Source: Planctomycetota bacterium
GTDB taxonomy: Bacteria; Planctomycetota; Phycisphaerae; WQYP01
Assembly: GCA_021809365.1 (NCBI GenBank)
Contig: JAKBAC010000002.1
Coordinates: forward strand, 1 to 64,000
DNA length: 64,000 nt
Direction: 5' to 3'
Shown piece after piece: positions 14,301-40,185 of the stretch. The notes below the pieces were generated by a model. That model was not told the DNA's origin, ran no database searches, and worked only from the letters and a program-made list of their open reading frames with translations. The position numbers and the translations under genes are program-made. Numbering within the stretch: the stretch's first letter is position 1; every line of letters starts with the position of its first letter.

Positions 14301-14468
14301 CGGATCGGCACCCGGGTAAGACGTTGTTACCGTCACGATGGTACTTGTGATCGTGGGATATTCCTGTGTGGTCATGCTCATCCACGCGCGCAATCCCAGA
14401 ACCAGGATAATCAGGTTGACCGCACAGGCCAATACCCAGCGTTTGATAAATAAATCCGTGAATTTCAT
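11367..14468 (-). CDS. RND-family multidrug efflux transporter (inner-membrane pump)
   Basis: A 1033-residue HAE-1-type RND pump of AcrB/MexF type, full length for the family. It has twelve membrane segments in two sets, two large periplasmic domains, and the paired aspartates of the proton relay in helix 4 (AIGLVVDDAIIMVENI). The porter-domain sequences TSYPGADPAQVQ and LAPTEDQGILF are family markers. It is the third gene of a minus-strand operon: outer-membrane factor, adaptor, pump, with gaps of 19 and 18 bases. Gene order here is outer-membrane factor first, unlike the common adaptor-pump-factor order. No adjacent regulator is seen. Substrates cannot be read from sequence. Confidence 0.95.
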   Translation of the reverse strand: MKFTDLFIKRWVLACAVNLIILVLGLRAWMSMTTQEYPTITSTIVTVTTSYPGADPAQVQAYITSRLEQAIAQAPNIDYMTATSAESTSTVTCNMVLNSDPNAAVSQILAKVQQVASQLPPASQTPVINEETGDARALIYLAFSSKTMNQQQINDYLLRVVQPKIQSLPGVSQAQILPSGSGSSGNSFALRVWLRPAKLAALNLTPADVSTALANNNFVSAIGRIRGKNIAQVITANTSIHNLADFKNLVVKYVNGVPIRLRDVADVTMGAQNYNQSVFLNGIPATFIGVFPSPTANDLTLAHEVHVALRQIQANLPAGLNGAIGYDGSVYIKAAISEVEHTLLITLGIVVLVIFLFLGSFRSLLIPVVAIPLAVIGAGLFMIAFGFTINLLTLLAVILAIGLVVDDAIIMVENIHRHIDEGLTPLQAAFKGARELAGPIIVMSTTLAAVFAPIGFMGGLTGSLFTEFAFTLVFTVMVSMIVALTLSPMLSSKILKPASQHGLVHFLDSMFMKLRHGYERSLHTVLAFRWLVLIMALVLFVTIPLMLMETQSELAPTEDQGILFFTGIGPPTATLHYMSAYASQIRQICRSFPETQKVFQINGFSPLGPGYNALVGGMLLKPWDQRKKTQMELAKPFQKKLSKIAGLQTIGFSLPAIPGAPFGLPIQFVLTSTRSYQDLDAAANKLIAAAYKSGKFLVLQKDLRYDSPQVELRIKHNLVAALGLNGSDLANDLEPLLGGNYVNRFDLQGRTYKVIPQLKDHLRATADMLKRIYIRTASGSMIPLSTVVTIKHVVEPQFLPQFQQLNSVTISAVATPGTTMGAALTYLHNEGKKLLPTGYAFDYAAQSRQFEQQGNAIYITFALAIILIFLLMAAQFESFRDPLIVMFTVPMAIVGAALFNFLGVATLNIYTEVGLITLIGLITKQGILIVEFANKLQENEGMNIYEAIIHASAVRLRPILMTTGAMVLGVVPLLVATGAGAVSRFDMGLMIAAGLSIGCVFSLYVIPVVYTFIASRKEKIQPGAEQSSAPVTP

Positions 14469-14486
14469 TTGGTTTCAGACCTTGCC

Positions 14487-15587
14487 TTATGGTTTAATTT
14501 TGTTGCTCACCACAACCACCGCACCCGGACGCAGTTTCACCTGGCCAGCGGTCACAACCACCTCACCGGCTTTAAGTCCGGAGGATATAACCGTGTCATT
14601 ACCTACGGGATTTCCCGTTTTCACCAGAACATTATTTACGGTCAATACTGTTTTTCCCCCCTTTTTGATTTTATTGACCAAATAAACGTAATCTCCATAG
14701 GTGTTGTAAGTTATAGCCTCGGTGTTCACCACCAGAACATTTTTTTTCACACCAGTCAGCAGCTCCACTTGACCGAATAATCCCGGCTTGAGCAACAGTC
14801 GTTTATTAGGCAGTACCGCCTGAACCTGAATATTCCGTGAGCCTACATCCACTTGCGATGAAAGCGCTGCAACCTTTCCGGAAAATATCTGGCCGGGGTA
14901 AGTGTCAACGGTCAGTTTCACGGTCTGACCGATATGCACCTGCGCCAGTTCATTCTGCGGAATGGAAAAATCCAGGTAGAGCGGCGTCCAGGTATTAAGT
15001 ACCACAATCGGAGTTCCCGGTGAAACATACTGTCCCAGGCTGACCTGGCGCAAGCCCAGATAACCCGTAAATGGCGCGGTAATTGCGAGTTTTGCCAAAG
15101 TTGCGCGATCGCCAGTCACCAGCGCCTTGGCTTGCAATAGAGCCGCACGATCCGTGTCGAGAGTCGCCTGACTGGCCGCCTTGTGGGCGATAAGATTTTC
15201 GGTTCGTATAACATTGATTCGGGCCAGTGCCTCCGCGGCCAGATCGGCCTTCAATTGCGCTAACTGCGTGGTGTTATCAATCTGCACCAACTTTTGGCCG
15301 GCTTTGATCATTTGCCCGGAATGGAAATAAATGGCCGTGACATTGCCGGATATCTGCGCTGAGACCTGCACTCCCTGAACCGCCGTCAAGCTTCCAACAA
15401 TATGAATCTCTTCGGGCAAACTGGTGGTTCGCACCGTTCCGGTGGAGACGGTGATCGGCGGAATCGGCTTGTGCGACATGGCATACGCAATCTTCTGGTT
15501 GTGAATCCATTTGTATGAAAACAACCCGATGACGATCGCCAGAAAAACCACCAGCAGAATGATGGAAATAATAACACGCTTTGCCAT
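14487..15587 (-). CDS. RND efflux periplasmic adaptor (membrane fusion protein)
   Basis: A 366-residue adaptor of the AcrA/MexE family linking the RND pump to the outer-membrane channel. One N-terminal membrane anchor (about residues 4-24) is followed by the lipoyl/barrel-sandwich half-motif GVQVSAQISGNVTAIYFHSG, a helical hairpin (LKADLAAEALARINVIRTENL), the second lipoyl half (ITAPFTGYLGLRQVSLGQYV) and beta-barrel and membrane-proximal domains (VLVKTGNPVGNDTVISSGL). There is no lipobox, so it is anchored by the helix. It begins 19 bases after the outer-membrane factor gene and ends 18 bases before the pump gene. Confidence 0.93.
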   Translation of the reverse strand: MAKRVIISIILLVVFLAIVIGLFSYKWIHNQKIAYAMSHKPIPPITVSTGTVRTTSLPEEIHIVGSLTAVQGVQVSAQISGNVTAIYFHSGQMIKAGQKLVQIDNTTQLAQLKADLAAEALARINVIRTENLIAHKAASQATLDTDRAALLQAKALVTGDRATLAKLAITAPFTGYLGLRQVSLGQYVSPGTPIVVLNTWTPLYLDFSIPQNELAQVHIGQTVKLTVDTYPGQIFSGKVAALSSQVDVGSRNIQVQAVLPNKRLLLKPGLFGQVELLTGVKKNVLVVNTEAITYNTYGDYVYLVNKIKKGGKTVLTVNNVLVKTGNPVGNDTVISSGLKAGEVVVTAGQVKLRPGAVVVVSNKIKP

Positions 15588-15606
15588 AATTTATGGAACC
15601 TCCACC

Positions 15607-17226
15607 TTACTTCTTAGCCACCGGCCGCATTGTCGCAGCTTGGGCGATTGCTGTTTGCGAGGAATGTTTTTTGACGGTTCTATATTCCTTGGGCCACCAG
15701 CCGCCGCCCATGGCGACAAATAGCGCTGCGGTATCCTGGTAGCGTTGGGCCTGCGCCGTCACTACTGCCAGACGCGATTGCTGATACTGCACCTGGGCCG
15801 TCAGAAGTGTCGTGTAATCCACCGATCCGGCCTTGTATTCCCAGCGTGCAAGTTTGTAAGCGCGAACAGCCGATACATACGCCTGCTGCTGGTATTGCAA
15901 TGTCCTGGCATCATTCTGTACCGCTCGAAGAGCATTGGCAACCTGCGCGAAATCGGCAAGAATGGTGGACTGATAATCGGCGACCACGGCTTTGAGGGCG
16001 GCTTGTGCGGCGCGTTTATTGGCCTCCAGGGTACCGCCGTCAAAAATTGTTTGCGTCAGGCTTCCCGCCACCGCCCAAATCAGGCTGGAGGGATCAAAAA
16101 AATCTGCCAAACGCCCGTTTTCAAATCCCAGGTCGCCCGTAATCTGAATCACGGGGTACATCTTGGCAATCGCCTCTCCCACCTGGGCATTGCCGGCCCG
16201 AAGTTGCGCCTCGGCAGATAATATATCGGGGCGATGATGCACCAGTGCCGACGGCAGAGATACGGGCAACGTGGCGGGTAGATTTAACAAATTCAAATCC
16301 AGCGGTGGAATGCGCGCTAGCGATGGAATTCTTCCGAGCAACACGGCCAATGCGTTCCGCGCGGCGGAAAGCGACTGTTCCAGCGGGGGCAATGTCGCTT
16401 CAGTGGCCGCGACCTGGCTTTCCTGATTGACGACATCCAGATAGTTCACAGCGCCAAGATGGTATTGCTGCCGGACAATCTTGAGAATTCTGTTTTCACT
16501 ACGCACCAGTGATTGCGTGGTTTTTACCCGTGCTTCCAGTGACGCCACCTCGATAGCGGTAGTGACGGTGTTGCCCTCAAGAGTCAGATACGCCTCCTGC
16601 AGTGCGTAACGTTGCTGATCTTCCTGGGCCTTGAATGAGTGCATGACAATACGGTTAAGCCCGAATATATCCGGGTCGTAACTGACCTGAACTTCACCGG
16701 TGTAAAGCGAATAGGTGCGCGTTGGACCACCAAAGCCCGCTCCGCTTTGACGTTGCCGTTCTCCGGTGGTGGAAAGTCCCAATTGCGGAAAAAATATGCC
16801 TTGAACGGATTTAAGATTTTGATGGGCCTCTTCCAGCGTGGCCGCCGCCGCGGCCAGGGTCGGGCTGTTTTTAATGGCCCGGATGACCAGCGTATTGATT
16901 TCCGGCGACTTAAACAACTTCCACCAGCGGGCTTGAACCTTGGTGCCGTAGGCAAACGCCTGAGCCGTCCCGGCGGCTCCCACATTTGAAATCATCGTGG
17001 TTTTCGTCGGTCGAGTTCCCGGCGTATATGATTTCACGGCGGGTGCTTTCGGCACTTGAAGTTTTGGTTCAATCGAACAGCCGGCGGTCATACAGGACGC
17101 CGTCAGAATCACGATGCTCCATCGCCACCGGATTACTGGTCCAGGTTTTTCATGTGCGGGAAACAGCTTATACCCCTTAACGCGACTACGGCTACGGTGA
17201 AATACTCCTGCTCCCGGCATCTGCAC
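15607..17226 (-). CDS. RND efflux outer-membrane lipoprotein (NodT/OprM family)
   Basis: A 539-residue TolC-like outer-membrane channel. A lipobox MTAGC places the acylated cysteine at about residue 50, after an unusually long, basic N-region, so the true start may be internal; no better start codon with a ribosome site is visible. Two OEP repeats follow (SPTLAAAAATLEEAHQN and RPDILSAEAQLRAGNAQVGEA), each giving coiled-coil helices that build the periplasmic tunnel. The last 80 residues are the typical AYKLARWEYKAGSVDYTTLL helix and a variable tail. It is the first gene of the efflux operon. Confidence 0.9.
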   Translation of the reverse strand: MQMPGAGVFHRSRSRVKGYKLFPAHEKPGPVIRWRWSIVILTASCMTAGCSIEPKLQVPKAPAVKSYTPGTRPTKTTMISNVGAAGTAQAFAYGTKVQARWWKLFKSPEINTLVIRAIKNSPTLAAAAATLEEAHQNLKSVQGIFFPQLGLSTTGERQRQSGAGFGGPTRTYSLYTGEVQVSYDPDIFGLNRIVMHSFKAQEDQQRYALQEAYLTLEGNTVTTAIEVASLEARVKTTQSLVRSENRILKIVRQQYHLGAVNYLDVVNQESQVAATEATLPPLEQSLSAARNALAVLLGRIPSLARIPPLDLNLLNLPATLPVSLPSALVHHRPDILSAEAQLRAGNAQVGEAIAKMYPVIQITGDLGFENGRLADFFDPSSLIWAVAGSLTQTIFDGGTLEANKRAAQAALKAVVADYQSTILADFAQVANALRAVQNDARTLQYQQQAYVSAVRAYKLARWEYKAGSVDYTTLLTAQVQYQQSRLAVVTAQAQRYQDTAALFVAMGGGWWPKEYRTVKKHSSQTAIAQAATMRPVAKK

Positions 17227-27279: not shown

Positions 27280-29391
27280 GTGATTCAAGCAACGGGTTCT
27301 CAAAGCGGTTCAACAGAGCGGATCGGCGAAGTGGGGCTGCCTTTGTCGGAACATGCTCATTCGCACACCGGAGCATCGGACGAATTGGACGGCATCGCCT
27401 GCGCATGTGGGCATGACCATACGGGGGGGCATGATGGGCATGGTCATACGGCCGGGCACAGTCATTCCGGCGTGAGTTTACAGTTGCAACTTTCGGTGCT
27501 GGTGCCGACGACTGTGGCTTTATTGATCCTGGCGGGAATTTTCTATCAATTTCCAACGGAAGTTCCCATGGCGCGGGCTATGGGGCTGCTGGCGGCGCTG
27601 ATTTCCGGCGGGCCGATATTCTGGCAGGCGGCGAAAGGCTTATCGCGCGGCCAGACGAATGTGAATGAATTGGTGGCTTTGAGCGTCATCGGTGCGATTG
27701 CCCTGGGCTGGCTGATTGAGGCTGGTCTGGTGGCGCTCTTGCTGCAGGTTGGGGCGTTAATTGAACAGGTGGCCACTGAAAGCGCTCGGAATGCCGTGCT
27801 GGCATTGCAAAATCTGGCACCGGTTCACGCCCGTGTGCGGCGCGGTGAACGCGATGAAATTATCCCCGCGGAAGATTTACGTGAAGGGGATATGCTGATT
27901 ATTGAACCGGGTGAACGCATCGCCGGTGATGGCACAGTGGTCACCGGTTCCACGAGCGTGGATGAATCCATGGTGACGGGGGAGTCGATTCCGGTGGATA
28001 AGGCGGCGGGTGGCACCGTGTTGGCCGGTACAATCAATCTTACCGGGTCGGTACAAGCGCAGGTAACGCGGGTGGGCGAACATTCGGCCTTGGGGCAGAC
28101 GATCGCACTGGTGCGGCGGGCGCAGCAATATCAGCCCCATATTATTCGTGCGGCGGATCGGTTTTTCTCATTCTATACGCCGTTGGTGCTGGTACTTTCC
28201 GTGGTGGCATTTTGGGTTTCCGGTCAGCCGGGCCGGATGATCACCATGTGGGTGGTGGGGTGCCCGTGCGCGATGTTGCTGGCGTCGCCATTGGCCATTG
28301 TGGTGGCTCTGGCCCGCGCCAGCCGCAGCGGAATTCAGATAAAAGCCGGGCCTTTTGTGGAAGCATCGGTCAATCTGGATACGGTGGTATTTGACAAAAC
28401 CGGCACGCTGACCACCGGCAAGTTTATCGTTCATAGTGTGCGACCATCGGAAGGTGTGGATGAAAATCAACTCCTGGCCCTGGCGGCGGCGGTGGAGAAC
28501 CGCAGCAGCCACCCCCTGGCGAAGACCATTTGCTCCTACGTTCGGGATCGGGGTGTGCGCTATCATGAGGCTTCGAACGTGAAAATTCTCGAAGGTCTTG
28601 GGGTGGAGGCGGCGGTGGACGGGCAGGTTGTCCGGGCTGGTTCCATCAAGATATTGCCGGCGGACATGGCCGCCGGCGCGGGTAATGTTGAGGCGGCGGA
28701 ATCTGAACTGCCGCTGGTGCCGGTATATGTGATGAATGAAGGCCGACTGATGGGAGCGATCTGTCTGACGGATGAAATTCGACCCGAAGCGCGGCGCGCA
28801 ATCAAGCATTTGAGAAATTTGGGAGTGAAGCGCATCGTGATGATGACCGGTGATCGGCGGAAAACCGCACAAATGGTAGGCCGTGCGGTGGGGTGTGATG
28901 ACATCTACGCGGAGCTTTTGCCGGCCCAGAAAGAAGAGTTGATTCGTCAGTTGCAGCGTGGTGATCATGGGGTGGCGATGGTGGGGGAGGGAATCAATGA
29001 TGCGCCATCACTGGCGGCGGCGACGGTGGGTATCGCGCTGGGATTGCGCGGGACCGATGCGGCCATTGAGGCTGCGGATGCCATATTGTTGAAGGATGAT
29101 CTGACGCGGATACCATTGCTTATTTATCTGGCGCGGCAGACGCGCATCGCGATTTTTCAGAACATCGGATATGCTTTATTTTTTGCGGTGTTTGCCTTGA
29201 TCGCCGCGGCCTTCGGGCTGTTCGGCCCGGTGGTGGCGGCAATGATTCATGTGCTGGCGGTGGTGGTCATCGCGGTGAATTCGGTGCGGCTCGCCGGTGA
29301 TGTGGGAGTGAATCGCAAGCCACTGCCGACGAGCATCAAGAAAAAGGCGATGCCGGAGGAAATTCCCGCGCCCGGGTTATCACCGGCATGA
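27280..29391 (+). CDS. P1B-type heavy-metal-translocating ATPase with His-rich N-terminus
   Basis: A 703-residue metal-transporting P-type ATPase, probably an exporter. The N-terminus lacks the usual CxxC metal-binding domain and instead has a His-rich tract (HDHTGGHDGHGHTAGHSHS, about residues 46-66). TGES is at 233-236, the membrane metal site CPC at 328-330, the phosphorylated Asp372 in DKTGTLT, and the HP motif in SSHPLAK. The hinge reads GEGIND (Glu570) where GDGIND is usual. In the last helix His657 appears to occupy the position of the metal-binding Asp of ZntA, ten residues before Asn667. Zn, Cd, Co or Cu are candidates. The start is a GTG at 27280. It leads into the SPFH cluster after 106 bases. 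Confidence 0.92.
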   Translation: MIQATGSQSGSTERIGEVGLPLSEHAHSHTGASDELDGIACACGHDHTGGHDGHGHTAGHSHSGVSLQLQLSVLVPTTVALLILAGIFYQFPTEVPMARAMGLLAALISGGPIFWQAAKGLSRGQTNVNELVALSVIGAIALGWLIEAGLVALLLQVGALIEQVATESARNAVLALQNLAPVHARVRRGERDEIIPAEDLREGDMLIIEPGERIAGDGTVVTGSTSVDESMVTGESIPVDKAAGGTVLAGTINLTGSVQAQVTRVGEHSALGQTIALVRRAQQYQPHIIRAADRFFSFYTPLVLVLSVVAFWVSGQPGRMITMWVVGCPCAMLLASPLAIVVALARASRSGIQIKAGPFVEASVNLDTVVFDKTGTLTTGKFIVHSVRPSEGVDENQLLALAAAVENRSSHPLAKTICSYVRDRGVRYHEASNVKILEGLGVEAAVDGQVVRAGSIKILPADMAAGAGNVEAAESELPLVPVYVMNEGRLMGAICLTDEIRPEARRAIKHLRNLGVKRIVMMTGDRRKTAQMVGRAVGCDDIYAELLPAQKEELIRQLQRGDHGVAMVGEGINDAPSLAAATVGIALGLRGTDAAIEAADAILLKDDLTRIPLLIYLARQTRIAIFQNIGYALFFAVFALIAAAFGLFGPVVAAMIHVLAVVVIAVNSVRLAGDVGVNRKPLPTSIKKKAMPEEIPAPGLSPA

Positions 29392-29497
29392 GTGTGCGAT
29401 GTTGACCATTAAAGGATTGTTCACTGAACAGTTATTCGGTTGATGCGGAAGTGTCGCTTACCGAAAAAGTACAAGCGGCTTGTAAGGAATATCACGC

Positions 29498-31573
29498 GTG
29501 AAGCGATCCATCACGATAGCATTTTGGGTATTAATGGGGCTGCTGGCCATCACAGCGGCTCTGGCGATTGCCGCCATGAAATATGGTACCGTGGTATTTT
29601 GGGCGGCGCTGTTTGCGGCGCTTGGACAGACCATATTGGCCGCACTGGCGTGGTGGGGACTGCGGTTGGCCCGTCAGCAGGCGGCGCTGGTGGATGAGGC
29701 GGAGGCGGAATCCAATGTGAAGTTTACTCCGCTGGCTCCGCTAGGCTCATTCCACATGAGTTATTCCGATGAAACCGGCACCTCCGCGGCGACGGCGGCT
29801 CCTGTTCCGGTGGAGCCGGAGGATATCACGACGCTTGACACGGGTTTTCAACGGATAATCGTGGGGCTTACATCGCTGGGATTTCTGGTGCTGGCTGGGA
29901 TCATCGGCTTGCTTGTCTACCGGGATTTTGCGGCAATTTCGCCCGGCCATCCGATTGTGGTTTCGCCGGTGGCGATTGATCCCGGAGCCGTGGTGGCGGC
30001 TGGTACGGCGTTATTGATTTATATTTTATTGATGCCATTTTCGCGCCCGCGACCGGAAACCGAGGGATTGGTGGATGCTTCCAACAGCATCGTGATACTT
30101 GGAATTCCCGGTGCCGTGGTGCTGCTGGCCGCGGTGATCGCGGCATGGGCGAAGGTGGCGTACGCCAGTCAGGCGGCGGCCATTTTTATCGCCGCCGTGC
30201 TGGTATTGCAGGCCTTTGAATTGGGCCTGAATTCCATACGCAGTCATGGCGGCATCGTGGAACTGGATCAGGCCGGCGTGGATCTGCAGCAATTGCCGCT
30301 GGTGCCCATGTTGTCCAGCGGCTGGATTGTGGGCTTCCGGGTACTGCTTGTGGAAAGTATCGGGATGTCACGCCAGGGCACCACGCCGCTGGCCATTTTT
30401 TCCAGACTGATTCCAAGGGTGGTAATTGCGGGGTTCGTATTTTTGATCTTGTTAAGCACGCTGCACGTCGTACCGACTGGAGAAGTAGGCATACGTGAAC
30501 ATCTGGGCGTTACGACCAAAGCCGATCTTGCCCATCCATTGAATCCGGGACTGCATATCCTGTGGCCTTGGCCGATTGACAAGCTGCAATATGAACCGAC
30601 GGACAAAGTAAATCTGGTGCTCGTCGGCTCGGAAGAGCGGGATAAAAACGTTCTTGGCAACAATGCTTTCTCATTTTGGAGCCAGCATGTTTCCATTCCG
30701 GATCAGGAGTTTTTAACCGGCGATGTCAATCCGGATGGCAGCCCGGCGTCACAATTGCTGGATGGCTTTGTGGCGGCGTGGTGGCGGGTAAAAAATCCGG
30801 GCGAATTTTTTGATCATATATCTACCAGCAAGATCATTGAAGTCGGCGGCCTGACAGGCGCGGGCTCCACATTGCATCTGCGACGGATGGATGCGGCGCT
30901 GGTGCACCAGGTTCTTTTGTACGCCATCACCCGGGTTTTCGCTCAAAATACCCTCAAGGGGATTATGGAATCGGAAGTTGGGCCGGTATCGCAAACCATC
31001 AAGCGGGATATGCAGAATGTCCTGAATCAGATGAAGTCGGGTATTGTGATATTGAGCGTGGAAATTAAGGACATCCACCCGCCCAAGGGGCAGACGCAAA
31101 ATACGGCGCAAGGCCGGATATTAGGCCCGGCGGAAGCATTTGAGAATGTTGTTGCTTCGCGGGAAATTCAGCAACAACTCGTTGATGCGGCCGATACGGA
31201 AGCGTATGCGGATAAGGCCCGGGCGCAGGGCTATGCCGAGGGGAAATTGCTGGCGGCGAATGGTTATGCTACCAAAGTGGTGAACATTGAAGAAGGACGC
31301 TCCAAAGCGTTGACGGTGCAATCCGAAGCATTCTCCAAGGCGGAACCCGCGGCCATGTCCTGGGCTTTTTATCAGGCTTTGAACACGATGTTTGGCAAGG
31401 TTAACAAAGTTATTCTCGGTCCGAATGTTACGCCGCCGGAAATATGGCAGATTGGGCATCGGGAGAGTAGCTCAATGATGGTGCCGCCGCCATCGGGGCC
31501 GCCGGGTGGTATTGGAACATCCAACGGGGCGGGGGGAGAAAATACGCCCGGAAGTGCCAGCGGGGCACCATAG
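29498..31573 (+). CDS. SPFH (HflK-like) protein with multi-pass membrane N-terminus
   Basis: A 691-residue protein. The first 325 residues contain about seven membrane segments (roughly 8-27, 32-54, 119-142, 163-181, 197-217, 222-241, 305-323), the last being the usual anchor before an SPFH/band 7 domain (VPTGEVGIREHLG onward, about 325-590). The later part has ALVHQVLLYAITRVFA, VEIKDIHPP and an Ala/Glu-rich helix, as in HflK. Ordinary HflK is about 400 residues with one anchor, so the membrane region is an addition. The C-terminus is Gly/Pro/Ser-rich. The start is a GTG with AAGGAA eight bases upstream. It is the first of three consecutive SPFH genes. Confidence 0.82.
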   Translation: MKRSITIAFWVLMGLLAITAALAIAAMKYGTVVFWAALFAALGQTILAALAWWGLRLARQQAALVDEAEAESNVKFTPLAPLGSFHMSYSDETGTSAATAAPVPVEPEDITTLDTGFQRIIVGLTSLGFLVLAGIIGLLVYRDFAAISPGHPIVVSPVAIDPGAVVAAGTALLIYILLMPFSRPRPETEGLVDASNSIVILGIPGAVVLLAAVIAAWAKVAYASQAAAIFIAAVLVLQAFELGLNSIRSHGGIVELDQAGVDLQQLPLVPMLSSGWIVGFRVLLVESIGMSRQGTTPLAIFSRLIPRVVIAGFVFLILLSTLHVVPTGEVGIREHLGVTTKADLAHPLNPGLHILWPWPIDKLQYEPTDKVNLVLVGSEERDKNVLGNNAFSFWSQHVSIPDQEFLTGDVNPDGSPASQLLDGFVAAWWRVKNPGEFFDHISTSKIIEVGGLTGAGSTLHLRRMDAALVHQVLLYAITRVFAQNTLKGIMESEVGPVSQTIKRDMQNVLNQMKSGIVILSVEIKDIHPPKGQTQNTAQGRILGPAEAFENVVASREIQQQLVDAADTEAYADKARAQGYAEGKLLAANGYATKVVNIEEGRSKALTVQSEAFSKAEPAAMSWAFYQALNTMFGKVNKVILGPNVTPPEIWQIGHRESSSMMVPPPSGPPGGIGTSNGAGGENTPGSASGAP

Positions 31574-31646
31574 CGGATCGGGTCAGTGAAGCATACACCT
31601 GGGTGAACAGGGAATGTGAATAACGGAAACTCCTAAAGGAAGTATC

Positions 31647-32594
31647 ATGCGTAAGTTGGCAATTGGAACTATCGTCGCGGTTGTACTGGTTGTGCTGTTT
31701 TGTGAACTGTGCACCGTCGTGGCCAAACCGTATCAGAAGATACTGCTGGATCGCTTCGGCAAAATTATTTCAAATCCGACACGGATTTGCTACAATTGGT
31801 TTTTATGCTATCCGACGGATCGTGTCATTCGGCTGGACATGCGGTTGCATCTGTATCAAAGCGATAACCGGGAAGTCAGTACCAGCGCCGGCGAGCCGAT
31901 CAGTATTCGCACGTTTGCGCTTTGGAAAATAATCAATCCGGTACTCTATGTAGACAGCTTGCCGGGGGGAACGCCCGCGGTACAGCGGTATTTGGATAAT
32001 AAAATTCAAAGTGCCGTTCTCAAGCGGATCGGACACTATACGCTCGATGAAATGTTCAACGTTGATGTCAAAAAGTTGAAAATGCAGCAGGCGGAAGAAG
32101 ACATTCAGAAAAAAGTAAATTTGGGCATGCAATCATTGGGAATTGGTGTGGTGAAGGTCGGCTTCGCCCGTATGACGTTTCCGCCGGACGTCGCGGCCCG
32201 GGTATATCAACGCATGACGGCGGAACGCAATAAAATCGCCAGTAAATACATTAATCAGGGCGAGAGGCAGGCACAAATCACCATCGCGCAAGGCCGCGAG
32301 GAAGCGACGGAAATTCGCAGTAAGGCCAGCAAGCAGGCGGCGATTATCCGTGGGCAGGCGGATGCCAGCGCGTACGCAATTTTGAATTCAGTACAGGAAA
32401 CGCCGCAGGCGCGGCAGTTTTATCGCTTTTGGAAATCACTGCAGTTGTTCCAGAATTCCATGGGCAACAGCACGTATTGGGTGCTTACGCCGGAGAATCC
32501 GGTTACGGAGCCATTATTTACGCAGTTAAAGCTGGTGGAAGGCTCCGGGGCAAAAAAAACGCCGATCAAGGCTGATCCGTCGGCGGTGAAGTGA
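31647..32594 (+). CDS. SPFH-domain protein, HflC-like
   Basis: A 315-residue SPFH/band 7 protein with one N-terminal membrane helix (about residues 5-25) and the domain beginning VVAKPYQKILLDRFGK. HflC features include RLDMRLHLYQSDNREV, the ARMTFPPDVAARVYQRMTAER segment and the Ala/Glu-rich coiled coil (QAQITIAQGREEATEIRSKA) that drives ring assembly. HflC and HflK together form a periplasmic cage around the FtsH protease in E. coli. AAAGGAAG lies just ahead of the ATG. No ftsH is in the window, so the partner here is not shown. Confidence 0.85.
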   Translation: MRKLAIGTIVAVVLVVLFCELCTVVAKPYQKILLDRFGKIISNPTRICYNWFLCYPTDRVIRLDMRLHLYQSDNREVSTSAGEPISIRTFALWKIINPVLYVDSLPGGTPAVQRYLDNKIQSAVLKRIGHYTLDEMFNVDVKKLKMQQAEEDIQKKVNLGMQSLGIGVVKVGFARMTFPPDVAARVYQRMTAERNKIASKYINQGERQAQITIAQGREEATEIRSKASKQAAIIRGQADASAYAILNSVQETPQARQFYRFWKSLQLFQNSMGNSTYWVLTPENPVTEPLFTQLKLVEGSGAKKTPIKADPSAVK

Positions 32595-32652
32595 CGCCGC
32601 GGTGCTGACGGTGGGCAATGTTGGAATCAAGCAGGTTCGCAGGAAAAATCCG

Positions 32653-33810
32653 ATGACTCAGGTTGATATTAATCAAGAATCTCATACGCATGACGATCAT
32701 CATGAACATCCTCATGATAATCAGTTGCCTGTTCTGCCTTCGGAAGCGCCTGCCAGCCGATGGCTGTCGCCGCAATTTGTTTTGCTCTATTTCGCCGGCG
32801 GTTTGATTCTGGTATGGATTCTCAGTGGATTTTATCAGGTGGGAGTCGGGGAAGTGGCGGTGGTGGAGCGGCTGGGGCAATATGAAATGCTGCCCGGCGG
32901 GAAACACGCCCTGCTGATGGAAGCGGGTCTCCATTATCACATTCCATGGCCCATTGATACCGTTCATATTGTGCCGCTGGAGCGCGAACATCTGCTGGAG
33001 GTTAATAATTTTAATTCCTCCCCGGCTGCGTACGCTGATCTGGAAAAGGCTTATTTGCGACAGGGTTACAGCAAGCGCGTTCTCGATGCGATCTTTAATC
33101 CGTACCTGATTACCGGTGATAAAAATATTCTTCACGCCCGCGTGGCGGTGCAATATCAGATATCCCACCCATTGCAATACATTCTTGCCGTATATCAACC
33201 GCCCGGTGGATTGCCCAATCAGGCGTGGAATAAAGTCATGAGCCTGCTGACGGATCGTGAGCTGATTCATAAACTTGCTTATGCCACAGTGGATGAGGCG
33301 CTGTACAGCGGCAAGACGGAAGTGGAACAGGAATTGTATGATCCGGTGAAACCTCAGGCGGGCCTGCAGCGCCTGGTCAGTAAGCTCAAACTGGGCGCGC
33401 AGGTGGCAAGAGTGGAATTGAAATACATCCACTGGCCCAGTGCGGTAAACGAGGCCTTTTCGGCTGTTCTCAATGCCCGGCAGCAGAAGAATCAGGATCA
33501 TCAGGATGCCAAGAAGCATTACAATCAATTGGTGATCCTGGCCAATGCTCAAGCCCAGACCATATTGAATCAGGCCCAGGCGAAGGCCGCCAGTACCATT
33601 GATGAAGCGCAGGGTGAAGCCAATGCGTTCAGTCAGATTTTTGCGCAATATCAGCGGAATCCGCGTGTTATTACCCTTAAGCTCTTAAACGATACTTTAA
33701 GCAACGTGATGAACAATGTGGGGCGGGTATTCTTTGTGCAGCCACATCAACAGATTATTCTGTCTATGCCACCGCCGCCCAGAAAGGTGAATGCTCCGTC
33801 CGCGCAATAA
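32653..33810 (+). CDS. SPFH-domain protein, HflK-like, with His-rich N-terminus
   Basis: A 385-residue third SPFH protein. Residues 10-22 are a His/Asp/Glu tract (ESHTHDDHHEHPHD) on the likely cytoplasmic side, followed by one membrane helix (about 42-60) and the SPFH domain (GVGEVAVVERLGQYEM). HFPWPI-like wording (HYHIPWPIDTVHIV) marks the HflK type, and an Ala/Gln-rich coiled coil (QAQTILNQAQAKAASTI) is present. The ATG at 32653 has AGGA eight bases upstream; an in-frame start at 32602 is less likely. The His tract parallels the one on the P-type ATPase four genes upstream. Confidence 0.82.
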   Translation: MTQVDINQESHTHDDHHEHPHDNQLPVLPSEAPASRWLSPQFVLLYFAGGLILVWILSGFYQVGVGEVAVVERLGQYEMLPGGKHALLMEAGLHYHIPWPIDTVHIVPLEREHLLEVNNFNSSPAAYADLEKAYLRQGYSKRVLDAIFNPYLITGDKNILHARVAVQYQISHPLQYILAVYQPPGGLPNQAWNKVMSLLTDRELIHKLAYATVDEALYSGKTEVEQELYDPVKPQAGLQRLVSKLKLGAQVARVELKYIHWPSAVNEAFSAVLNARQQKNQDHQDAKKHYNQLVILANAQAQTILNQAQAKAASTIDEAQGEANAFSQIFAQYQRNPRVITLKLLNDTLSNVMNNVGRVFFVQPHQQIILSMPPPPRKVNAPSAQ

Positions 33811-33824
33811 GTATCGTGATAAGA

Positions 33825-34083
33825 GGTGTGGCAATTTTTCTGTATTGGGGTAGCATTTGAGCCTTCCGCGAGCGGTGTCGGCACATGCGGCGGTTGCCGC
33901 CGAGCGGGTGAATTTTGAGCAGGAGATCAGGAGAGCAAATGGGGATGGAATTGGAGAGTTGCTGACGGTAGCCGGACAACGCCACTTGCGGTCGCCTGTA
34001 CGCTTGCGCAAGGTACTTTTGACCGTCGGCTAAAAGGAGATGCGGCGGTGCCGGTACCACGGTACGAATTTATGGCCACGCCC
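33825..34083. repeat. Possible degenerate inverted-repeat element
   Basis: The left end (33825-33839, GGTGTGGCAATTTTT) and right end (34067-34083, complement GGGCGTGGCCATAAATT) are imperfect mirror images and resemble the arms at 10389 and the outer end near 26733. The element would fill most of the 316-base gap between the third SPFH gene and the ABC ATPase gene. The similarity is short, so confidence is low. No gene is visible in 33811-34126. Confidence 0.25.
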
Positions 34084-34126
34084 ACGGTGAGTTTTGTCCT
34101 GTGTGCGGTTGAAACTGGAGTTATGG

Positions 34127-34999
34127 ATGGTTGTGGACAATCAAGCGATTCAAACACGGCAACTCTCGAAAGTTTATCCCGGCTTTTTCAAAAGTCAGCA
34201 GGTGCCGGCGTTAACGGAGTTGAATCTGCGTGTGAATCAGGGGCAGATTTTCGGCCTTTTAGGCCCCAATGGAAGTGGAAAGACCACTACCATCAAACTT
34301 CTGCTGGGTCTGATCAACCCGACATCGGGTGATGCGCTGGTGATGGGCCAGCCCGCCGGAGATCAGGAAACGCGCCGCCGCATCGGTTATCTCCCGGAAG
34401 AAAGCTATCTCTATCGGTTCCTCAATGCCCGTCAAACGCTGGATTTTTACGCGCGGTTGTTCAACATGAATCGTGCGCAGCGGCGGCGGGCGGTGGATTA
34501 TTACCTGGACTTTGTGGGGCTGGATCCCAGCGTGCGGGGCCGACGGATCGGCACATATTCCAAGGGGCAGACGCGTCGCGTGGCCTTGGCGCAGGCCTTG
34601 CTGAATAATCCCGATCTGATCATCATGGATGAGCCGACATCTGGACTGGATCCGGTGGGGATGCTGGAAATAAAAAATATGATTCTGCGGCTGCGGGATG
34701 CGGGAAAGACAGTTCTGCTGTCCAGCCATCAATTGGCGGATGTGGAGGATGTGTGTGATCGGCTGGTCATCTTATATCGTGGTCGCATTGAGTTGGAAGG
34801 CGCGTTAAGCGACTTGCTGGAAAAGAAGGATGTATTCCAATTGTCAGCGCGGAATGTGTCCGACGCGCTTCAGGCGAAGCTGGCGGAAATGGCGGCACAG
34901 GAAGGGGCGACGGAAATCCATACCGGGCGGGCGCGCGTTCGGTTGGAGGATTTGTTCAAAGAACTTGTGGCTCGCAAGCGCAGCGGAGAGATGCGGTAA
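34127..34999 (+). CDS. ABC transporter ATP-binding protein of the SPFH-linked module
   Basis: A 290-residue ABC ATPase. Walker A (GLLGPNGSGKTTT), Q-loop (GYLPEESYLYRFL), signature (YSKGQTRRVALAQAL), Walker B (LIIMDEPTSGLDP) and switch His (LLSSHQLADVED) are all intact. The C-terminal 80 residues form a small extra domain. The ATG at 34127 follows GGAG at seven bases. The stop codon is immediately followed by the next gene's TTG start, so it pairs with the large ABC-2 permease. It probably drives export or membrane remodelling; the substrate is unknown. Confidence 0.9.
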   Translation: MVVDNQAIQTRQLSKVYPGFFKSQQVPALTELNLRVNQGQIFGLLGPNGSGKTTTIKLLLGLINPTSGDALVMGQPAGDQETRRRIGYLPEESYLYRFLNARQTLDFYARLFNMNRAQRRRAVDYYLDFVGLDPSVRGRRIGTYSKGQTRRVALAQALLNNPDLIIMDEPTSGLDPVGMLEIKNMILRLRDAGKTVLLSSHQLADVEDVCDRLVILYRGRIELEGALSDLLEKKDVFQLSARNVSDALQAKLAEMAAQEGATEIHTGRARVRLEDLFKELVARKRSGEMR

Positions 35000-37123
35000 T
35001 TGGCGTTTATGCCCTCCCTTGGTAGTTCGCTATCTGGAATAAACAGGTACATGTATCAAATATTGCAACACGTTTCCGACAGACTGGTCCATGCGGGTAT
35101 AGCCCTGGGGACCTACTATCACCCGCCCGCGCAACATCACTACGTCACCATTTTCGCCGATGTGGTCATCGCGCTGCTGATTCTGGCATTTGTGCTGACG
35201 GCATTTCGTGATATTGCTCGGCTGCGCCACGGCATATCCCGCGCCTGGGCCATTGGCCGCACCACATTGTTGGAGGCTTGGGCGGGTCGTATGTGGGCTG
35301 TTCCGCTGGTATGGTTTGGCGTGTGCGTGCTGCTGGGCGTGTTGATCGTTCGTGGCTATGAGCCGGCGGGCGTGGTGCGGGTTTACCTGACCATTTTTTT
35401 GCGGGCTCAAGTACTGATGCTGCTGGTGTACTTTGGAATTCTGGCATGTGTGACATTACCGCGCGAGCGAGAGCGACATACTCTGATCACCACCGGCAGC
35501 AAGCCTGTGTCCCGCCTGGAATTGCTGCTGGGGAAGGTCATGGGCCTTGTGGCGGCGGCCATGATCATGCTGGCGGTGATGATGGTGCTAACCTGGGGTT
35601 ATATGAAATTGGTGAATTTCAAAATTCGCCATGATGCCCAGGTGCTATATGCCCTGCAAAAACATGATTATGACAAGGTGTTGCGTCGGATGCCGCCGGA
35701 TTCCGGCGTGCATTATCTTGCGGAGCATGGCGTGCTTGAGGCGCAAAATTATATTTCCGGTGCGTTGAGTATCGCCGGCCTGATTGATTACAGTCATAAT
35801 CCACCCACCCGGGCGCTTAAAGGTGGTAGCTCGGAGACGCTTTATTTTGAATTTCCATCATTGCCGGCCGCGGCAAATTACCGGCCCATGTTCGACTTTA
35901 ACTTTCTGGTAGGGAATGTATTGCCATCCAATCCGCCCCAACCGGTCAAAATTCAAGTCACGATGGTGCAGCGCAGCAATCCGATGAATACTCTGGAAAA
36001 AACGCTGACGCTTAACGCCCGGGGCCAGGCGATCTGGATGCCCAAGAATCCACTGGCATTTTTCAGCTACGTCAATGCGCAGACCGGTGAACATTTTGAT
36101 CCTGGTCCGGTGGTGATCAAAGTTACATGTCCGAACTTTGGCGTATATCTCGGAATTGGAAATGGCACACACCCGCCGAGCCGTACCAGTTGCCTGGCCA
36201 TCGATCTGGATCGAAGTCGGACACCGGGCCATTCCGGAATTATTGCGCCGCGCGCAAATCCAGTGATCACCGGCTTTAAGGATAATGGCAAGCAGGAGAT
36301 CGTAGGCCCCAGTATCCGTCATCCGCAGATTAAGCCCGAAGTCGCGTCTTGGGATTTTAAACATCTTCATGGGCGTTCAATCCCGATCGGGCCGCATGGC
36401 AATTTTACCGTTCACATGGTAATCAGTGTGGATAAGCAATCCAATGAAGCCCTTGCGCCCAGAGCCTGGATTGTGGCCTACAACATCAACCGCCCCCGGC
36501 AGCGCGTGGAGCAATCCATTGTTGTTAACGAGAAGCGTATCACCGCAATTAAACTCCCGGCGAGTCTTCTGGGATCGGGTGATCTGATCATCAACCTGCG
36601 CAGCGAAGTTCCGGGCCAGTGGTTCAAGGTGAAAGCCGATTCCATGCTGATCATGCAACCGCCATCGACGTTTATCGCGAATCTTTTCAAGAGCGAGCTG
36701 GTAATCCTCTGCGAGGTGGCGCTGATCATCACCATCGGCGTGGCGGCCAGCACCGTGTTGGGCTGGCCGGTGGCGATGTTAACCGCTATGGTGGCATATA
36801 TTCTTGGCAACTTATTTCAATTCGTACATGGGCTGTTTTATGCGGGTGGATTCGAGCTGCTCAATATTGTCGAACAGAATCACCTGAAACACGCCTGGTA
36901 TTACCACGTTGGCTCATTTATATCCAATGTCATGGTGCGCATGCTCTGGCTGATTGTGCATCTGCTCCCGGATTTTACCCGGTATGATCCACTGTACTTT
37001 ATTGTTCGCTCCAAGGATATGCCGCTTGAAGTGGTGCTGCTGGATATGGTATGGACGCTGGCGTGTATTTTGCCGACGTTGGCTATCGGCTATATGCTGC
37101 TGCGCAAACAGGAGTTGGCGTGA
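35000..37123 (+). CDS. Large ABC-2 permease with extracytoplasmic domain
   Basis: A 707-residue membrane protein. Four helices near the N-terminus (about 50-68, 99-118, 126-150, 178-203) include the ABC-2 element LPRERERHTLITTGSKPVSR. A soluble region of about 350 residues follows (about 205-560), predicted outside the cytoplasm and beta-rich by its composition. Four further helices lie at the C-terminus (from ELVILCEVALIITIGVAAS to LDMVWTLACILPTLAIGYML). The start is uncertain: TTG at 35000 directly after the ATPase stop, or ATG at 35009. The size of the outer domain is unusual for an ABC-2 permease and suggests it contacts an envelope substrate or partner. The 3' end overlaps the next gene. 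Confidence 0.82.
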   Translation: MAFMPSLGSSLSGINRYMYQILQHVSDRLVHAGIALGTYYHPPAQHHYVTIFADVVIALLILAFVLTAFRDIARLRHGISRAWAIGRTTLLEAWAGRMWAVPLVWFGVCVLLGVLIVRGYEPAGVVRVYLTIFLRAQVLMLLVYFGILACVTLPRERERHTLITTGSKPVSRLELLLGKVMGLVAAAMIMLAVMMVLTWGYMKLVNFKIRHDAQVLYALQKHDYDKVLRRMPPDSGVHYLAEHGVLEAQNYISGALSIAGLIDYSHNPPTRALKGGSSETLYFEFPSLPAAANYRPMFDFNFLVGNVLPSNPPQPVKIQVTMVQRSNPMNTLEKTLTLNARGQAIWMPKNPLAFFSYVNAQTGEHFDPGPVVIKVTCPNFGVYLGIGNGTHPPSRTSCLAIDLDRSRTPGHSGIIAPRANPVITGFKDNGKQEIVGPSIRHPQIKPEVASWDFKHLHGRSIPIGPHGNFTVHMVISVDKQSNEALAPRAWIVAYNINRPRQRVEQSIVVNEKRITAIKLPASLLGSGDLIINLRSEVPGQWFKVKADSMLIMQPPSTFIANLFKSELVILCEVALIITIGVAASTVLGWPVAMLTAMVAYILGNLFQFVHGLFYAGGFELLNIVEQNHLKHAWYYHVGSFISNVMVRMLWLIVHLLPDFTRYDPLYFIVRSKDMPLEVVLLDMVWTLACILPTLAIGYMLLRKQELA

Positions 37124-38583
37124 TGTCCGCAAAACCTCCCTTACGTCCAATTGCATCGGCTTCTCCGGCTCAGACTCCCGGCAAATTGCCTCGGCGCATT
37201 AACAGTCAGGCGCGACGCGATCAGGTCATTTGTATTGCCATTGCCGTGGTGCTCCTGGCCGGGATATGTCTGATTCAGGCCCCACTGCGCTCGCAGCGGG
37301 CCAGGCTGGTCACGAACCATAATAAGAGCGTCGGCGATCTGATCATGACATTTCCCCGCCTGACGCTGGGCGGCTTTCGCGGTGTTTTGGCGATGGTGTT
37401 GTGGGAAAACGCCGAGAAGGACAAAAATAAACATCAATGGGTTCCGCTGGAAACCGATTACAACGCCATTGCGGCCCTGGAGCCGTACTTCGGTTCAGCG
37501 TATATCTTTAATGCGTGGAATCAGTCCTACAATCTCTCCGCGCAATTTCATGACATGAACACCAAATACAAGTGGGTCCTCGATGGATTGATCTATCTCT
37601 ATAAGGGAGAAAAATACGTTCCAAACAACGCCAACATGATCATGAATGAAGCGAATGATTTTTATCTCAAGCTCGGTACAAGCTTCGAACGCCGCTATTA
37701 CACGGCCCGGTGGCGTTATGATCTGGCACATTTGTATCGTTATCAGCCGGGCAAGGTCAACGCCCAGCTAAGCACTCTGGCGGAAGTTTACTACATTGTG
37801 CATCGGCCGGAATTTCATATCAAACTGCTGCCGCCGCGATCAGGAAAGGGGCCGGTGGGCCATGGCGTATCCGTCAACGGGGTACATTATCGCTATGGAT
37901 TAAGTGTGTTTTATTTCGCGTATCAGGAATATCAGCGTGCTCTGCATACCGTGCCCGGCCCCACGGACATGGGACAACAGGTGCTTGATTCCTGGCCGTC
38001 GATGACCTTGCGGTGCTGGTGCCGCGATGATCTTTTTTACGCCCAGCGTTTGACCAGTCGCCTGTTCAATGAGCCGGAAAAGCAAATGCTCCGGCGATTT
38101 CCCGCACGCGTTGAGAATATTCAGGATTGCTATCGGAACGTCAAGGTCAATGCGCCGCGCGCCATTCGAGAATTCAAGGAGTATCTGACCAAATATCCCT
38201 ACCAGACAACACTGCATCGCCCCCACATTGTGGAAGTGCGGTATTACGAAGCACTGGAAAAAGCGGAGCACGAGCTGTTCAGGGGGTTGGTGCGGTGGCA
38301 GAACAATGACCGACAGTTTCGCCTGGGGGATGCGGCGGACCGGGACCTGGCATCCGCCGTGGTGCTGTATCGTCAGGCGATTGCGGAATATGAGCATTAT
38401 CTCAATGTCGCGTACCCCGCACAGGCCAACGGCATGCCCAATCCTCATCGTGCCGATCAGATCAGATTTTTGAATGCCTTGCGGGCGCGCATCAACGGCA
38501 TCCAGAGCTTTCGCCTGACCGCCGCGCATAGCCGGCCGAATATGAGTTTCCTTACCCCGGCAACGCTTTCGTTCAGTGACTGA
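37123..38583 (+). CDS. Membrane-anchored protein of unknown function, coupled to the ABC permease
   Basis: A 486-residue protein I do not recognise. After a basic N-terminus, one membrane helix (VICIAIAVVLLAGICLI, about residues 30-50) is followed by a large domain rich in aromatic residues and helices (YFGSAYIFNAWNQSYNLSA; FYLKLGTSFERRYYTARWRY), with a pattern suggestive of TPR-like helical repeats but no clear consensus. The ATG at 37123 overlaps the permease stop (TGATG) and has GGAG eight bases upstream, so it is translationally coupled and probably a component of the same transport module. A secretion-linked assembly role is inference. Confidence 0.7.
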   Translation: MSAKPPLRPIASASPAQTPGKLPRRINSQARRDQVICIAIAVVLLAGICLIQAPLRSQRARLVTNHNKSVGDLIMTFPRLTLGGFRGVLAMVLWENAEKDKNKHQWVPLETDYNAIAALEPYFGSAYIFNAWNQSYNLSAQFHDMNTKYKWVLDGLIYLYKGEKYVPNNANMIMNEANDFYLKLGTSFERRYYTARWRYDLAHLYRYQPGKVNAQLSTLAEVYYIVHRPEFHIKLLPPRSGKGPVGHGVSVNGVHYRYGLSVFYFAYQEYQRALHTVPGPTDMGQQVLDSWPSMTLRCWCRDDLFYAQRLTSRLFNEPEKQMLRRFPARVENIQDCYRNVKVNAPRAIREFKEYLTKYPYQTTLHRPHIVEVRYYEALEKAEHELFRGLVRWQNNDRQFRLGDAADRDLASAVVLYRQAIAEYEHYLNVAYPAQANGMPNPHRADQIRFLNALRARINGIQSFRLTAAHSRPNMSFLTPATLSFSD

Positions 38584-38592
38584 GGGTCTGGA

Positions 38593-40185
38593 ATGTTTTC
38601 CGATGAAATAGCTCGGCGAAGAACATTCGCCATTATCTCCCATCCCGATGCCGGAAAAACCACGCTGACGGAAAAATTGCTGCTATATGGCGGTGCCGTG
38701 CAGTTGGCCGGTTCGGTTACCGCGCGTAAATCACAGCGCGCCACCACCTCCGATTGGATGGAACTTGAGCGCCAGCGTGGTATTTCCGTCAGTTCCACTG
38801 TTTTGCAGTTTGATTACAACGGCTATCGACTGAATTTGCTCGATACGCCGGGGCATAAAGATTTTTCTGAAGATACGTATCGTGTGCTGACGGCGGTCGA
38901 TGCGGTCATCATGATTATTGATGCCGGCAAAGGTATCGAACCTCAGACGCGAAAGCTGTTTGAAATTTGCCGGCGGCGGGGCGTGCCGATCTTTACGTTT
39001 ATGAACAAGCTGGATCGACCCGCGCGCGAGCCGTTGGATTTATTGGATGAGCTGGAGAGGGTGCTGGGCCTGCATGTTTTTGCCATGAACTGGCCATTGG
39101 GCAATGGTAAGGAATTTCGCGGCGTATTTGACCGCGTTGGAAAAGCGGTGCATTTATTTGAGCGTACACCGCACGGGGCGTATCGGGCACCGGTGGCGGT
39201 GTCGCAATTCGATGATTCTTCCGTGCGGGCGGCGTTGGGAGAACATCTCTATAGCCAGTGCCATGAGGAACTGGGTTTGTTGGAGGTGGCGGGCGCAGAG
39301 TTGGATGTTCAGCGGGTTCGCGCCGGCAAACTCACACCCGTATTTTTCGGCAGCGCCGCCAACAATTTCGGTGTGCAGATGCTGCTGGACGCTTTCCTCC
39401 AATATGCCGTGGAACCGCAGCCGCGGAAATCCGGTGATAGCACTGTGGCATTGGATCAGGCCGCATTTTCCGGGTTCGTCTTTAAGATTCAGGCCAATAT
39501 GGATCCGCGACATCGTGATCGCATCGCGTTTGTGCGGGTGTGCTCGGGAAAGTTCACGCGGGATATGACGGTCATTCATGCTCAAAGTGGCCGTAAGGTG
39601 CGGCTTTCAAGCTCGCATAAACTTTTTGGCCGCGATCGGGAAACGGTGGATGAAGCATATCCCGGAGATGTGATTGGTCTGGTTGGACATGACGAATTCG
39701 GAATTGGTGATACGCTCACGGAAGACCCGGCGATTGTATACCATGAAATTCCGCAATTCTTGCCGGAATGTTTCGCCTATATTCATTCCACCAATACCTC
39801 GCAATTCAAACGCTTTCGCGAGGGCCTGGATCAGTTGCTTCAGGAGGGTGTCACGCAGGCCCTGCAGGTGCGGCATTCCCACACGCGGCTGCCCCTGCTG
39901 GCGGCGGTCGGGCCGTTGCAATTTGAGGTGGTGCAATATCGCCTGCAAAGCGAATACGGGGCGGAAACACGGTTTGAGAAGGCACCGTGGGAGGTGATGC
40001 GATGGCTGGCTCCGGATGCACCGGCGGACCAGGTGGAGCAGGCTGTACAGTATAAAAAAATCGGGCAGGCTATCGACGCTCGGCGGCAGCCGGTGCTGCT
40101 GTTTCCGGATGAATGGGCGTTGAAATATTTTCAGCGGGAGCACGCCGATCTTGTGCTTTATGAATTACCGCCCAGGTCGGGTTGA
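38593..40185 (+). CDS. prfC: Peptide chain release factor 3
   Basis: A 530-residue translational GTPase, the same length as E. coli RF3. It removes RF1/RF2 from the ribosome after termination. The G motifs are ISHPDAGKTTLTEK (G1), DTPGHKDFSEDTYR (G3) and NKLDRPAREPLDLLDE (G4). RF3-specific wording includes QRGISVSSTVLQF and the C-terminal GPLQFEVVQYRLQSEYG. It starts nine bases after the preceding gene, so it is likely in the same transcript as the SPFH/ABC module, though functionally unrelated. Confidence 0.96.
   Translation: MFSDEIARRRTFAIISHPDAGKTTLTEKLLLYGGAVQLAGSVTARKSQRATTSDWMELERQRGISVSSTVLQFDYNGYRLNLLDTPGHKDFSEDTYRVLTAVDAVIMIIDAGKGIEPQTRKLFEICRRRGVPIFTFMNKLDRPAREPLDLLDELERVLGLHVFAMNWPLGNGKEFRGVFDRVGKAVHLFERTPHGAYRAPVAVSQFDDSSVRAALGEHLYSQCHEELGLLEVAGAELDVQRVRAGKLTPVFFGSAANNFGVQMLLDAFLQYAVEPQPRKSGDSTVALDQAAFSGFVFKIQANMDPRHRDRIAFVRVCSGKFTRDMTVIHAQSGRKVRLSSSHKLFGRDRETVDEAYPGDVIGLVGHDEFGIGDTLTEDPAIVYHEIPQFLPECFAYIHSTNTSQFKRFREGLDQLLQEGVTQALQVRHSHTRLPLLAAVGPLQFEVVQYRLQSEYGAETRFEKAPWEVMRWLAPDAPADQVEQAVQYKKIGQAIDARRQPVLLFPDEWALKYFQREHADLVLYELPPRSG

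Follow-up and report, generated by a model that had tools for sequence, protein, structure and literature searches.

The stretch analyzed here (the window) comprises 64,000 nucleotides of contig JAKBAC010000002.1, from a Planctomycetota bacterium of the class Phycisphaerae. At positions 27280 to 38583 it carries seven same-strand genes that encode a P1B-type metal ATPase, three SPFH proteins of the HflK/HflC type (SPFH1 to SPFH3), an ATP-binding cassette (ABC) ATPase, a permease, and a membrane-anchored protein resembling tetratricopeptide repeat (TPR) proteins (Table 1). The open reading frame list, Pfam, and NCBIfam bore out the genes and domains described in an earlier reading made from the DNA alone (the sequence-only reading). 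SPFH1 has seven hydrophobic segments, the last of which precedes its HflK-like Band_7 part, and SPFH2 and SPFH3 have one each. The ABC ATPase, the permease, and the TPR-like protein are probably slightly shorter than their longest open reading frames and begin at the ATG codons given in Table 1. The likely ATG of the TPR-like gene shares one base with the permease stop codon, an overlap which suggests that the two genes may be translationally coupled.

Table 1. Genes of the cluster, in window coordinates
Product	Length (aa)	Position	Strand	Remarks
P1B-type metal ATPase	703	27280..29391	+	TIGR01525 above cut-off; His-rich N-tail; CPC; His in last transmembrane segment
SPFH1, HflK-like	691	29498..31573	+	Multi-span N-terminal domain, then Band_7 at 324-565
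SPFH2, HflC-like SPFH protein	315	31647..32594	+	One N-terminal transmembrane segment
SPFH3, HflK-like SPFH protein	402	32602..33810	+	His-rich N-tail; alternative start possible at 32653
ABC ATPase, DrrA/GldA-like type		34094..34999	+	Likely ATG 34127
ABC-2-like permease		35000..37123	+	Likely ATG 35051; all-beta domain of ~310 residues between membrane parts
Membrane-anchored TPR-like protein, no Pfam family		37051..38583	+	Likely ATG 37123

Gene order is conserved in the class and the phylum

At the six nearest relatives of the locus (SPFH2, 90 to 92%), the genes stood in the same order up to the ends of the relatives' contigs. A profile search found a relative of the TPR-like protein in 145 of 150 class genomes, and the best locus was taken from 139 of these 145; since G060 gave two, 140 loci were surveyed, with genes called by profiles that were built from the window genes and iterated over the fetched loci. 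The genomes outside this survey were G005, G006, G067, G093, G118, and G142, the first two being those of the relatives L002 and L003. Three same-strand SPFH genes, upstream of ABC-permease-TPR, were present in 92 of the 140 loci (two in 4, one in 1, and none in 43). The exact order SPFH1-SPFH2-SPFH3-(P1B)-ABC-permease-TPR was kept in 91 loci, 71 without a P1B gene in between, 19 with one, and 1 with an extra ABC gene behind; in the 92nd triplet locus, L121, the first SPFH gene was a cut frame of 135 residues.

Sixteen of the 43 SPFH-free loci had less than 7 kb of upstream sequence. The 27 with at least that much consisted of 23 with ABC-permease-TPR only, 1 with ABC-TPR, and 3 with the TPR-like gene only. 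Five genomes were inspected for SPFH genes away from the TPR-like locus. In G133, G128, and G065, three SPFH genes followed by ABC-permease were found at another place, with no TPR-like match behind them; G134 had three SPFH genes with no ABC gene within the examined stretch, and G011 had three SPFH genes with P1B and no ABC gene (L194) and ABC-permease-TPR at a separate place (L057). The SPFH1 profile A2 gave no match in 46 of 150 genomes, yet two of these, G038 and G056, do carry the gene. In the phylum, 104 of 149 genomes had a relative of the TPR-like protein, and all six loci chosen from them had ABC-permease-TPR, accompanied in four by the SPFH triplet and P1B; this phylum picture rests on six loci, some possibly from the same class.

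Taken together, the order kept in 91 of 140 loci and the triplet linked in 92 rule out a chance neighborhood, and the cluster is almost certainly a conserved, linked system. The gene-order survey proposed in the sequence-only reading was thereby carried out: the SPFH triplet and the ABC set, whose separation in relatives would have spoken against that reading, are linked in most class loci and in 4/6 phylum loci.

In 72 of the 91 exact-order loci (e.g., L064 and L073), SPFH1 was immediately preceded by a second, shorter ABC-2-like permease gene in divergent orientation; the number is 73 if one locus with an intervening ABC gene is counted. The window's cluster showed no such gene ahead of it.

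The SPFH triplet groups apart from canonical HflK and HflC

All three window SPFH proteins scored above the Band_7 cut-off of 23.6 bits (SPFH1, 42.3; SPFH2, 62.6; SPFH3, 52.7), and all fell below the NCBIfam equivalog cut-offs: SPFH3 reached 132.5 against 159.4 for HflK, SPFH2 reached 113.7 against 134.4 for HflC, and the best score of SPFH1 against either model was 58.3. In a tree of 63 SPFH domains, including 15 rows for each of SPFH1, SPFH2, and SPFH3, a single branch set off each of the three, with its planctomycete and plasmid members grouped together (branch support, 67/27 for SPFH1, 93/85 for SPFH2, and 98/95 for SPFH3). SPFH3 was sister to canonical HflK and SPFH2 to canonical HflC, SPFH1 stood apart, and none fell inside the canonical clades. 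Separate adjacent hflK-hflC pairs in G024, G034, G069, and G074 (L195 to L198) grouped with the canonical proteins. Given that the triplet members group apart and these extra pairs group with canonical HflK and HflC, the triplet, judged by the tree, is a unit of its own, separate from HflK and HflC, and certain genomes encode the triplet as well as such a pair. A simple hflK-hflC duplication was rejected, since the tree gives three separate lineages. Further adjacent SPFH genes were seen in G071 and G082.

The sequence-only reading had remarked that no FtsH is present. This holds for the locus itself, where no FtsH gene was found, but not for the organisms: FtsH-family matches occurred in 61 of 61 class genomes, and in 59 of them the match was above the curated cut-off.

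The permease carries a large all-beta domain

The ABC ATPase matched ABC_tran with 105.4 bits (cut-off, 25), and its best models were drrA and GldA, both below their cut-offs. The permease gave weak matches to ABC2_membrane models (22.2 against a cut-off of 27, and 18.9 against 27.2); precomputed PF12679 annotation was present on 26 of 30 listed relatives of the permease and not on the window permease. In the predicted structure, residues ~245 to 553 are all beta and lie between membrane parts, and this outer domain may be a carbohydrate-binding-like beta-sandwich. The giant-loop permease of the sequence-only reading is thus upheld as to the large domain (~310 residues in the model), and the likely start trims the open reading frame on which it was based. 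Sequence comparison of the permease with solved structures gave no match, and Foldseek gave eight matches at an E value of 0.001, of mixed kinds and low TM-score. The TPR-like protein had 10 weak matches to solved structures by sequence (best E value, 0.015) and no Foldseek match at 0.001. The direction of transport, the substrate, and the topology proposed for this ABC half are putative.

His-rich tails are confined to the pump and SPFH3

The window P1B ATPase exceeded the TIGR01525 cut-off of 346.25 bits with a score of 525.7. A His in the last transmembrane segment was shared by the window pump and the pumps encoded with SPFH triplets (module pumps), except for one plasmid pump that did not match the pattern, and three of five outgroup pumps have Asp at this position. 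The CPC motif occurred in every module pump except those of L110 and L194, and also in four of the five outgroup pumps. In the pump tree, a moderately supported branch (88/82) separated the module pumps from the outgroups, the window pump and its nearest relatives formed a lineage apart from the plasmid pumps, and a second pump at L037 grouped with a copper pump.

His-rich N-terminal tails, defined as at least four His per 15 residues, were found on 35 of 60 P1B ATPases and 32 of 97 SPFH3 proteins. None occurred in the other five protein sets (0/667: SPFH1, 0/91; SPFH2, 0/95; ABC, 0/134; permease type including the second permeases, 0/207; TPR-like, 0/140). With a narrower N-terminal stretch, tails were found on 27 of 60 P1B ATPases, 23 of 98 SPFH3 proteins, and 1 of 209 permease-type proteins. 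At four annotated plasmid loci inspected by eye, SPFH2 carried a His tail in three and P1B in two. A tail that shifts among SPFH subunits yet stays confined to SPFH proteins and the pump would be hard to explain without metal. The hint of metal handling that the sequence-only reading took from the His tracts is therefore strengthened by the pump family, by the tails on two of the seven proteins, and by a similar locus, hmtA, described below. A metal role of the cluster is likely, and we infer the metal to be zinc or copper.

The SPFH-P1B half also occurs on plasmids

Plasmid sequences were searched by tblastn with SPFH1 (11 records), SPFH3 (62 records), and one plasmid SPFH1 (10 records). Five of the 10 matches opened had SPFH1-SPFH2-SPFH3-P1B in this order without ABC-permease-TPR, all in Pseudomonadota: Paraburkholderia sprentiae, Burkholderia ubonensis, Klebsiella aerogenes, Rhizobium tumorigenes, and Rhizobium sp. 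T1473, the last from an unannotated record and called by profile only. The remaining five were hflK-hflC pairs. No Pseudomonas record appeared in the organism lists shown for these searches. The SPFH1 profile spans most of the N-terminal membrane domain in the two plasmid proteins tested, and on the P. sprentiae plasmid the module has genes for a zinc ABC importer and a copper chaperone in its vicinity. By gene order and tree position, this half is a module shared by two phyla. The module plasmids of B. ubonensis and K. aerogenes (L184 and L188) were typed as conjugative, so that the module can probably travel. On a Vibrio plasmid, hflK-hflC is followed by a sodium/proton antiporter gene, as is the SPFH-P1B module on the R. 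tumorigenes plasmid (L187 and L189).

Comparison with known systems

HmtA, a P-type ATPase of Pseudomonas aeruginosa, was described as an importer in 2009, as cited in the papers below. In gene content and order, as distinct from sequence, the zinc-responsive, Zur-bound hmtA locus (PA2439-PA2435) appears to be the nearest studied counterpart of the cluster. PA2434-PA2439 includes the gene for HmtA (PA2435), there called a P-type ATPase importer, and three HflC/HflK-family genes, and the listed genes of the cluster rise 5.6- to 14.4-fold in zinc depletion (PMC4542158). The locus begins with PA2439, whose promoter is shifted by Zur; hmtA mRNA was low and not repressed by zinc, and the authors suggest mainly copper import (PMC8531726). 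Proteins PA2435 and PA2437-2439 were raised in zinc depletion, and PA2438 and PA2439 are called significant by the authors, whose table gives P values of 0.011 and 0.053 for PA2438 and of 0.184 and 0.065 for PA2439 (PMC11761036). A 2026 study placed three SPFH genes, paFlo5-7, in a single predicted operon and saw small phenotypes upon deletion; the words ATPase and transporter are absent from its text (PMC13086221). From number and order, PA2437-2439 are probably PaFlo5-7, and would be members of the SPFH1 to SPFH3 lineages. The window shares with hmtA the three SPFH genes and an adjacent P1B gene. It differs in that its pump gene precedes the triplet and in its ABC-permease-TPR genes, which are not named with hmtA in the available text of these sources.

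The novelty claimed in the sequence-only reading is therefore reduced: the SPFH-P1B half is cross-phylum and has a studied probable counterpart. A literature search judged by titles and the starts of abstracts, with most subscription journals outside its scope, found none describing an SPFH triplet next to an ABC transporter or comparable SPFH clusters in planctomycetes.

The other likenesses are partial. HflK/C of Escherichia coli assembles around FtsH (PMC12048511), and the window proteins share its Band_7 proteins of HflK and HflC type, SPFH3 and SPFH2 being sister lineages in the tree; however, the window has three subunits rather than two, one of them multi-span, all below the equivalog cut-offs and with no FtsH gene at the locus. 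The mycobacterial PacL/CtpC effluxosome likewise joins a scaffold to a P1B6-like pump that has CPC and, in its last transmembrane helices, an HN motif, and PacL carries a metal-binding tail as SPFH3 carries a His-rich one (PMC9374683 and PMC13043812). The plasmid module pumps have HN, whereas planctomycete pumps mostly have H and another residue. PacL, in contrast, is a DUF1490 protein rather than an SPFH protein and its foci are independent of flotillin (PMC9374683); no DUF1490 match was found by Pfam in any of the seven window proteins. Finally, the ATPase and the permease resemble DrrA/GldA-type ABC-2 systems in their best models and weak ABC2_membrane matches, and differ in the subthreshold ATPase scores, the carbohydrate-binding-like domain predicted for the permease, and the conserved TPR-like partner.

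Surroundings of the cluster and other scans

The cluster is followed by prfC (38593-40185) and preceded by Rrf2 and DUF502 genes. None of seven queried flanking genes, these included, was found at the loci of the six nearest relatives. Elsewhere in the window, the minus strand encodes a tripartite RND efflux set at 11367-17226 (AcrB-type pump, HlyD-type adaptor, and OEP outer-membrane protein), and an open frame of 539 aa at 62322-63941 has no Pfam match at 1e-5. A defense system was rejected, as PADLOC matched only the ABC ATPase, with the ATPase parts of several systems, as was an RNA element, no Rfam match reaching the gathering threshold in the window. A consensus for a Zur-like box did not match ahead of the cluster; across the window it occurred 10 times, with 6.3 occurrences expected. 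Scans for promoters and terminators yielded no more matches than shuffled sequence did.

Discussion

We propose that the cluster encodes a three-subunit SPFH assembly that would organize a P1B pump of the zinc/copper class and, in Planctomycetota, an ABC-TPR transporter as well. In the first module, the HflK/HflC-type assembly would gather or house the pump, SPFH1 would add a multi-span membrane domain, and the His-rich N-tails of SPFH3 and the pump may hold or hand over metal. The second would combine the ABC ATPase and a permease having an outer beta-sandwich domain with the TPR-like protein, anchored in the membrane and facing the same side. In the class, the assembly may serve both transporters, bringing metal traffic and envelope export or maturation onto one membrane platform. 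We consider it an even bet that the seven genes make up a single functional system with two modules, in which an SPFH assembly serves pump and ABC transporter, and a physical organization of both transporters by the SPFH proteins is plausible but slightly short of even. The interpretation offered in the sequence-only reading is thus upheld in part, and its suggestion of SPFH cages around the ABC transporter stays hypothetical. It is doubtful that these proteins form a third SPFH architecture, a heteromeric three-subunit cage with its own multi-span subunit enclosing the pump and the ABC machine; the corresponding picture of a planctomycete transport vault whose metal half also occurs on plasmids of other phyla is just as speculative.

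Two observations weigh against the metal evidence. A P1B gene is near in only 57 of 91 class loci, and the presence of the SPFH3 tail shows no clear association with a P1B gene close by (23/57 versus 7/34, P = 0.066). Two others favor a pair of independent modules that share only an operon or regulator, SPFH-P1B for metal homeostasis and ABC-permease-TPR for envelope export: the former stands alone on plasmids and in L194, and the latter stands alone in the 23 class loci noted above and in two of six phylum loci. Such independence, however, sits poorly with a fixed order across 91 diverged loci and with three genomes in which the best TPR-like copy is elsewhere and the SPFH triplet is still beside ABC-permease, and we judge it unlikely, at roughly one chance in five. 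FtsH itself is above the cut-off in nearly all class genomes. FtsH-family matches in every genome scanned make a serious rival of the idea that the triplet is an HflK/HflC-type adaptor for an FtsH encoded elsewhere, to which the pump and the ABC proteins would be no more than the most frequent clients or neighbors. The sister relationships of SPFH2 and SPFH3 to HflC and HflK fit this idea, as does at least one genome (G048) with only the triplet's three Band_7 genes. Yet at least 4 of 15 scanned genomes (the four with extra pairs) also hold the canonical pair, so that the triplet is no replacement there; no window SPFH protein passes an HflK or HflC equivalog cut-off; and FtsH is encoded away from the cluster, whereas ABC and often P1B are linked to it. 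We rate an adaptor role as a minority possibility.

Instead of exporting, the ABC half could energize the insertion of metal outside the membrane, presumably in the manner of NosDFY, with P1B supplying the metal and the SPFH proteins keeping both together. A permease relative, P0131, is named in its source as "involved in multi-copper enzyme maturation," and the beta domain and TPR-like partner may face the same side; the source name, however, is probably automatic, and no NosD-like protein or metalloenzyme gene was seen in the window's cluster. We consider this explanation improbable.

A shared SPFH platform would bear on the roles of bacterial SPFH proteins beyond FtsH, since here three lineages that differ from HflK and HflC accompany transporters at most of the class loci examined, and the metal half keeps these lineages with a pump in two phyla. 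The general statement that SPFH proteins organize membranes becomes a concrete question, whether they house one particular metal pump and one particular ABC transporter, and the unexplained HflK/HflC-like genes beside Pseudomonas hmtA gain a possible role. For the Planctomycetota, a phylum of little-known envelope biology, the cluster would represent a widespread envelope system.

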